Shown here in pieces: positions 2,515-2,691 of a stretch of DNA of 5,404 nucleotides. The stretch lies in assembly GCA_003973505.1 (NCBI GenBank), contig QNXT01000138.1:1-5404 (forward strand), written 5' to 3'. The notes below the pieces were generated by a model, which was not told the DNA's origin, did not search any database, and saw only the letters and a list, made by a program, of their open reading frames with translations. The stretch is from Bacteroidota bacterium. Its GTDB lineage: Bacteria; Bacteroidota; Bacteroidia; Bacteroidales; UBA1556. A program made the position numbers and the translations under genes. Numbering within the stretch: position 1 is the stretch's first letter; each line of letters starts with the position of its first letter.

Positions 2515-2522
2515 TAATGAAA
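2515..2522. repeat. Left copy of 8-bp target-site duplication
   Basis: TAATGAAA directly abuts the left terminal inverted repeat of the MITE-like element and is identical to 2684-2691 on the other side. Confidence 0.7.
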
Positions 2523-2545
2523 GGCTAAGTTCTAATTCTTACCTC

Positions 2546-2595
2546 TTTTTCAATGGTTTTTCGCCCCAACCCTAAAGGTAGAAACCATTGAAAAA
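2546..2595. repeat. Internal hairpin 1 of the MITE-like element
   Basis: TTTTTCAATGGTTT (2546-2559) and AAACCATTGAAAAA (2582-2595) are perfect 14-bp complements around a 22-nt loop containing CCCCAACCCTAAAGG. No U-run follows the stem in either direction in the way a standard terminator would show. It splits the left half of the element from the motif that adjoins the terminal repeat in the right half, so it may be a secondary insertion. Confidence 0.7.
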
Positions 2596-2607
2596 ACAAG
2601 ATTCATT

Positions 2608-2659
2608 TTTTTTACTTTTTGGTTCCCTTTAGGGTAAGGGTAAAACAAAAAGTAAAAAA
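2608..2659. repeat. Internal hairpin 2 of the MITE-like element
   Basis: TTTTTTACTTTTTG (2608-2621) and CAAAAAGTAAAAAA (2646-2659) are perfect 14-bp complements around a 24-nt loop. The loop contains CCCTTTAGGG (2625-2634), which is itself a short inverted repeat. The arm sequence recurs after mtnA at 3887-3900. Confidence 0.7.
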
Positions 2660-2683
2660 TGCTGTGACAATTAGAATTAAGCC

Positions 2684-2691
2684 TAATGAAA
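2684..2691. repeat. Right copy of 8-bp target-site duplication
   Basis: TAATGAAA directly abuts the right terminal inverted repeat and is identical to 2515-2522. The exact abutment on both sides makes chance unlikely even in AT-rich DNA. Confidence 0.7.

Follow-up and report, generated by a model that had tools for sequence, protein, structure and literature searches.

What is the inside of a MITE for? A 161-bp unit in the DNA analysed here (the window, a stretch of 5,404 nucleotides taken as a whole) raises this question, as MITEs are normally defined by their ends and their interiors are seen as leftovers, whereas here it is the interior that is common to different elements and the ends that vary. 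The reading that we develop below, to which we give a probability of roughly 70%, is that the unit is a MITE moved in trans with a hairpin core that is common to elements bearing other ends. The evidence base is computational and consists of draft genomes and selected loci, with genomes denoted by G and loci by L.

An earlier note on this DNA had described terminal inverted repeats (TIRs) matching at 13/15 positions, exact flanking duplications and two inner hairpins with 14-bp perfect arms, all of which are present (Table 1). The inverted pair extends to 29 nt at 76%, and both copies of TAATGAAA are exact over 8 bp and abut the TIRs. In the window only one pair of exact 8-bp direct repeats 60-600 bp apart is combined with TIRs of at least 13/15, that of the 161-bp element, and no counterpart occurred in 300 windows simulated with a first-order Markov model, which bears out the claim that duplication and TIRs together exceed chance. 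At a looser TIR cut of 9/15 there are four pairs in the window and 270 in the 300 simulated windows, and as simulations also yield pairs at this cut it is the combination at 13/15 that counts. The unit is well below the ~500 bp usual for MITEs, has both TIRs and target-site duplications and is without a transposase ORF, the ORF list of the window holding none of at least 60 aa that overlaps it; as RNA it folds with z = -5.9 on the + strand and z = -4.6 on the - strand. The lack of an ORF, from which mobilisation in trans had been asserted as a necessity, is thus confirmed, whilst the mobilisation itself is deduced from that lack, and we regard the unit as very probably a MITE moved in trans.

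Table 1. Features of the element and its truncated copy, in positions of the window.
Feature	Position	Strand	Basis
Whole element (very probable MITE), 161 bp	2523..2683		Direct reading, ORF list, repeat search, simulation
Left target-site duplication TAATGAAA	2515..2522		Read directly; exact copy at 2684-2691
Right target-site duplication TAATGAAA	2684..2691		Read directly; simulation
Left terminal inverted repeat GGCTAAGTTCTAATT	2523..2537	+	Identical 15-mer at G069 and G326 element ends
Right terminal inverted repeat GGCTTAATTCTAATT (reverse-complemented)	2669..2683	-	Repeat search
Hairpin 1, perfect 14-bp arms 2546-2559 / 2582-2595	2546..2595	+	Repeat search, RNA fold
Hairpin 2, 17-nt arms 2608-2624 / 2643-2659, 94%, 14 bp perfect	2608..2659	+	Repeat search, RNA fold
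Loop motif copy 1 CCCCAACCCTAAAGGT, 1 mismatch to CCCCnnCCCTAAAGGG	2564..2579	+	Motif match with shuffles
Loop motif copy 2 CCCTTACCCTAAAGGG, 1 mismatch to CCCCnnCCCTAAAGGG	2625..2640	-	Motif match with shuffles
Truncated second copy: right TIR, hairpin 2 right arm and part of loop	3862..3909	-	BLAST

The element sits between divergent genes, upstream of an IF-2B ORF at 2772, and the genes of the window encode a glycosyltransferase, an ABC ATPase, the IF-2B-type protein and an Omp85-type protein. The IF-2B protein has 57% identity to a Maribellus protein and 62 and 58% to those of two Chloroflexota-type MAGs, and the glycosyltransferase has relatives at 97 and 95% on short contigs and one at 75% that is named Bacteroidales. 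We take the source to be an uncultured and probably Bacteroidales-like bacterium sampled by metagenomics. The window also holds a half copy of the element that the earlier note missed, in which 40 of 52 aligned columns are identical to the element's right half (BLAST E 2e-5, 1.7-kb subject). Between 4025 and 4140 there is a palindromic intergenic repeat, GGGGCTAAAGCC ... GGCGGGGCATTAATGCCCCGCC ... GGGCTTTAGCCC, which is REP-like and where all Rfam matches are below threshold.

The 15-mer GGCTAAGTTCTAATT stands at element ends in other genomes: G069 and G326 have it unchanged, and G194 has it with a single difference. G069 contains a complete 346-bp element bounded by this TIR (L147, about 1183-1528), its flanks TTAATTAG and TTAAATAG being 7/8 alike; the interior of this element is very unlike that of the window's and is GC-richer. 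Six places in G326 share the last 34-36 bp of the query end, with a candidate second end at only one of them. In G194 six copies reach contig ends and in all six an open frame, of which 22 to 45 aa are present, ends in the TIR, as would be expected of a multicopy IS in a draft genome. For the 44-aa ORF end of G194 there is one weak Pfam match below cut-off (MazG_C, E 0.079) and no match in NCBIfam or plasmids, and a complete autonomous element with GGCTAAGTTCTAATT ends was not recovered among the genomes searched. The sequence itself, the 346-bp element and the ends shared with G326 and G194 all agree with a MITE that has TIRs and an 8-bp target-site duplication, as had been claimed, and a putative transposase recognising GGCTAAGTTCTAATT ends would move it in trans and make the 8-bp duplications.

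The description of the element as apparently uncatalogued agrees with the collections searched: it has no match in plasmids or phages, viral contigs gave no pattern match to it in two scans or to its TIR in one, and the seven Rfam matches to the window up to E 1 are all below gathering score, including the two that fall on the element, at E 0.31 and 0.41. A 16-mer of the arm alone is unspecific, matching at least 120 viral contigs, and loci found by it were left out as evidence. Among the matches listed by a pattern search of genomes there are 27 in 25 of 393 genomes, many of which look like AT-rich chance matches, and follow-up was limited to matches in which the TIR or the loop motif could be seen.

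The two hairpins had been treated as incidental nested repeats; they are the more notable part of the element and form a pair in which the loops are conserved and the arms variable, and such pairs are present also in elements with other ends. A 16-nt motif is common to the two loops, in opposite orientation, which had been overlooked; each loop is within one base of CCCCnnCCCTAAAGGG, and none of 200 shuffles of the window gave a match. Searched for exactly, the motif has 179 sites, spread over 26 of the 393 genomes in the order of G001; G162 alone accounts for 53 of them, and the motif reversed has 19 sites in 18 genomes. Because each of the window's own loops differs by one base, such an exact search would miss them. 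A longer motif, CCCCnnCCCTAAAGGGAG, has 17 sites in 8 of 395 genomes of a phylum sample (control 1). The general layout of a hairpin is an arm, TTT(G/A), CCCC nn CCCTAAAGGG, (A/T)G and a complementary arm, with the second hairpin in opposite orientation.

Some individual loci stand out. The longer loop motif was seen in a single viral contig (L218), which has GC-rich flanks and short paired arms, and in G761 (L219, L232) paired GC-rich motifs in opposite orientation lie within long outer palindromes, unlike the usual AT-rich setting. Two loci in G349 have loop variants with ~25 extra apical nt, CTACCTGGCTAAAGCAGTTAGACAG at L386 and a related piece at L384.

The arms, which the motif searches had ignored, were compared at 110 distinct fetched sites from 34 genomes, with up to 10 places per genome listed and sites within 40 nt of an end dropped; left and right flanks taken from different genomes served as the control. 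When the best of 30 registers is taken, at least 7 of 8 flanking bases are paired at 76 of these sites, against 10.9% in the control, and in a single fixed register this is so at 50 (control 1.8%). The other 34 sites are without well-paired arms and include those of G019, G286, G342, G447, G698, G745 and G761, together with five of the six in G240. When one random site per genome was drawn from 26 genomes, using the extended loop that is present in 64 of the 110 sites, mean pairing was 0.645 as against 0.310 when shuffled, with 0 of 500 draws reversed, and each of the 8 positions showed on average 3.3 to 4.0 types of Watson-Crick pair. Paired flanks with several Watson-Crick types per position mean that the arms change together whilst the loop is kept, so that pairing is maintained. 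Co-change of arms is also possible without selection, via template-switch correction of palindromes.

In many families the arms have, by eye, a GATTTTTCA-like core in common, from which the window's arms differ; this common core weakens the idea, which we considered and set aside, that arms are copied from an arbitrary target at insertion. In 23 of 28 paired elements only 22-27 nt lie between the motifs and the middle arm, again by eye, is complementary to both of the outer arms, whilst in the window and in L145 of G349 the two hairpins are independent of each other. RNA folds of six elements had the motifs pairing with each other in five and only the window as two hairpins, which means that the motif may not always be a loop. 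As a selected stem, motif-motif pairing was rejected, since the two nn spacers agree in 1 of 28 paired elements, where 0.119 is expected across genomes, and such pairing is therefore not the property conserved at nn.

The core is found on ends of several types. In a directed check, 7 of the 11 loci with GAGTCCGGTCTAAAA-type ends (G132, G162, G194) had exact 6-bp duplications (ACTATT, ACACGT, ATCGTT, ATCACT, ATTATT and AAATAT twice), the loci without an exact 6-bp duplication in this check being L252, L273, L292 and L293. A search for TIRs outside the loops gave GTCTCTGCAAGAAAA ends with the core in G338, with duplications TACTTA and TAGTTA, and TGAGTTCGATTTA-type ends (G331, G170), three loci of which have exact duplications of 6 or 7 bp. 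The directed check found a duplication in none of six GTCTCTGCAAGAAAA-type loci, where its start pattern overlapped the duplication, and in none of three TGAGTTCGATTTA-type loci, despite the three listed by the TIR search. No duplication of at least 5 bp was verified for TTCTACTTTGACACA-type ends (G075, G149, G331, G333, G362), GAGGCTGTCTCAAAA-type ends (G238, G248, G338, G149) or ACTGTTTTGAATTTT ends (G170). Many loci have no TIR or a weak one, so not every core has been shown inside a MITE.

It is possible, though we doubt it, that there is nothing here beyond an ordinary MITE, that is, one ancestral element whose ends have drifted, with an interior that is shared simply through descent and is without any function. 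The GATTTTTCA-like arm core of many families speaks for this, as do four of 28 pairs of ends that are 0.67-0.75 alike, likeness here being the best ungapped overlap, a measure without a chance level: TGAGTTC-type (TGAGTTCGATTTA) ends are 0.67-0.73 like three others, among them the window's at 0.69, and GAGGGTGTCC ends are 0.75 like GAGGCT. The remaining 24 pairs, however, are only 0.38-0.62 alike, and these include all 15 pairs among the GAGTCC, GAGGCT, TTCTAC, GTCTCT, ACTGTT and window ends. Duplications of core-bearing elements also differ in length (6 bp in nine loci, 7 bp in two and 8 bp in the window), and a near-fixed loop amid changing ends and arms is the reverse of the drift expected for an idle interior. 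A core shared between ends of different origin is therefore the reading that we consider likely, and our confidence in it has been lowered because one kind of end is so like three others.

The behaviour of the core can be followed between two related genomes, G349 and G785, where G785 matches the G349 locus L198 at 86% and other loci at 62-87% under more permissive scoring. There are 13 motif places in G785, of which three have orthologues among the motif loci of G349; these three belong to two loci. One orthologous hairpin is identical over ~95 nt, including both arms and the loop, amid the 86% background, and in a G785 paralogue of it the arms have changed in a paired manner. For eight of the other ten places the flanks matched G349; the hairpin is absent from G349 at two of these (128 nt versus none and 198 versus 13), is replaced by unlike sequence at one (L382/L385), and at three corresponds to a hairpin-like structure in G349 that differs in its arms, in an inner stem or by a longer loop, these outcomes covering six of the eight and leaving out L372 and L381. 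At one intergenic place, L383 in G349 and L370 in G785, there is a hairpin pair in both genomes, and arms and inner stems differ (CCCCAAGGGG instead of CCCTAAAGGG). The core is thus dynamic, with no single clean unit of insertion seen in these two genomes. An origin of the arms by inverted target duplication is weakened further by the two clean empty sites (insertions of ~128 and ~185 bp), which are without a simple single-arm target, and for singletons the arms may have arisen in this way.

Such mobility might instead belong to the hairpins themselves, as a separate, self-spreading REP-like unit that enters MITEs and intergenic sites and in whose arrays a DUF559 nuclease could be involved, an explanation that we think unlikely. 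Consistent with it, two sites in G785 (L378, L380) match motif loci of G349 along the 36-40 nt hairpin and nowhere else, and motif arrays adjoin DUF559 endonuclease genes in G174, G548, G447 and G240 (L327, L328, L341, L346), some of them with perfect arms (L327, AATGCCTGC/GCAGGCATT). A motif-like site with up to 3 mismatches lies within ~1.5 kb of 6 of 29 DUF559 loci, compared with 1 in 580 shuffles, and in one of these six, L329, the match needs all 3 mismatches; the other 23 loci are without such a site, and as the genomes were chosen for the motif the figure of 6/29 is not an unbiased rate. Furthermore, the two clean empty sites differ from their occupied counterparts by more than a bare hairpin, and at E 1e-5 DUF559 was not detected in 8 of the 21 genomes searched, including the motif-rich G162, G338, G349 and G194. 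As the enzyme that moves the MITEs DUF559 was accordingly dropped as unsupported, and it is kept as a candidate for the arrays.

A third possibility, and one that we consider less likely still, is a role in transcripts, with the hairpins serving the host as terminators or RNA-stability elements and being retained on that account. Placement outside ORFs of 100 aa at 54 of 62 tallied well-paired sites (some elements being counted twice) would suit such a role, as would the orthologous hairpin wholly conserved between G349 and G785. Yet terminator-like sites, a GC-rich stem followed by a T run, number zero in 2300-2900 of the window, and Rfam at E 0.5 gave no match in ten motif loci. Only 7 of the 62 sites are between convergent genes and 12 are between divergent ones, and the window's element is itself placed between divergent genes.

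We return, then, to a MITE with a hairpin core that is found also with other terminal repeats and other duplication lengths. The core would have been passed between transposon ends, and the folded hairpin, as a cruciform or as RNA, would be read through its loop by a factor common to the hosts. Loop recognition is the reason for upkeep of the core that we hold most likely, with plain descent and independent mobility as its rivals, and we advance it tentatively, at rather less than even odds. More speculative, and on balance improbable, is a new class of Bacteroidales hairpin element: a loop-recognised module, TTT(G/A)-CCCCnnCCCTAAAGGG-(A/T)G between any pairing arms, that would either move by itself or be copied by a nuclease of its own, perhaps of the DUF559 type, and that would have been taken up as interior by several unrelated transposon families, so that their MITEs would be exchangeable ends around a common structural core. 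A hairpin type with a near-fixed loop and changing stems inside mini-transposons with different ends is in any case unusual. No description of a conserved-loop core was found among the listed titles and abstract openings on the motif itself, Bacteroidetes MITEs, hairpins and DUF559 repeats, a survey with subscription journals mostly outside its scope. The finding would allow one to ask what purpose the interior of a MITE has, whether cores move from one set of transposon ends to another, and what factor, if there is one, recognises a loop that is fixed while its stem is free to vary.

Among known systems, the replication-origin stem loops of CRESS viruses, which are nicked by HUH Rep proteins, have a conserved loop on a variable stem. 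The window-type hairpins would share that arrangement with them, as a resemblance only. IS-derived bacterial MITEs such as BrickBuilt (PMC4596501) and those of Cardinium (PMC9769881) are, as far as the available parts of these texts go, like the window's element in being short and non-coding, with TIRs and often target duplications. The repeats of BrickBuilt, a MITE of Porphyromonas gingivalis and so also from the Bacteroidetes, are predicted to form long stem loops (PMC4596501), whilst the main text of the Cardinium paper has no word starting with hairpin or loop (PMC9769881). Neither text, in the same parts, presents a hairpin core common to different terminal repeats (PMC4596501, PMC9769881), and the window-type core differs from these MITEs in that its loop is kept and its arms vary. 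The REP palindromes, with GTAG and CGTC tags and RAYT transposases, are small hairpins that often occur as inverted pairs and whose stems and loops vary between families, according to the part of that account available (PMC3733652). By eye, neither tag is present at the feet of the window's hairpins (2546/2595 and 2608/2659). In REP palindromes as there described (PMC3733652) the GTAG or CGTC tag is at one end, whereas here the conserved part is the loop and, unlike them, the hairpin pair lies inside a TIR element with a duplication.
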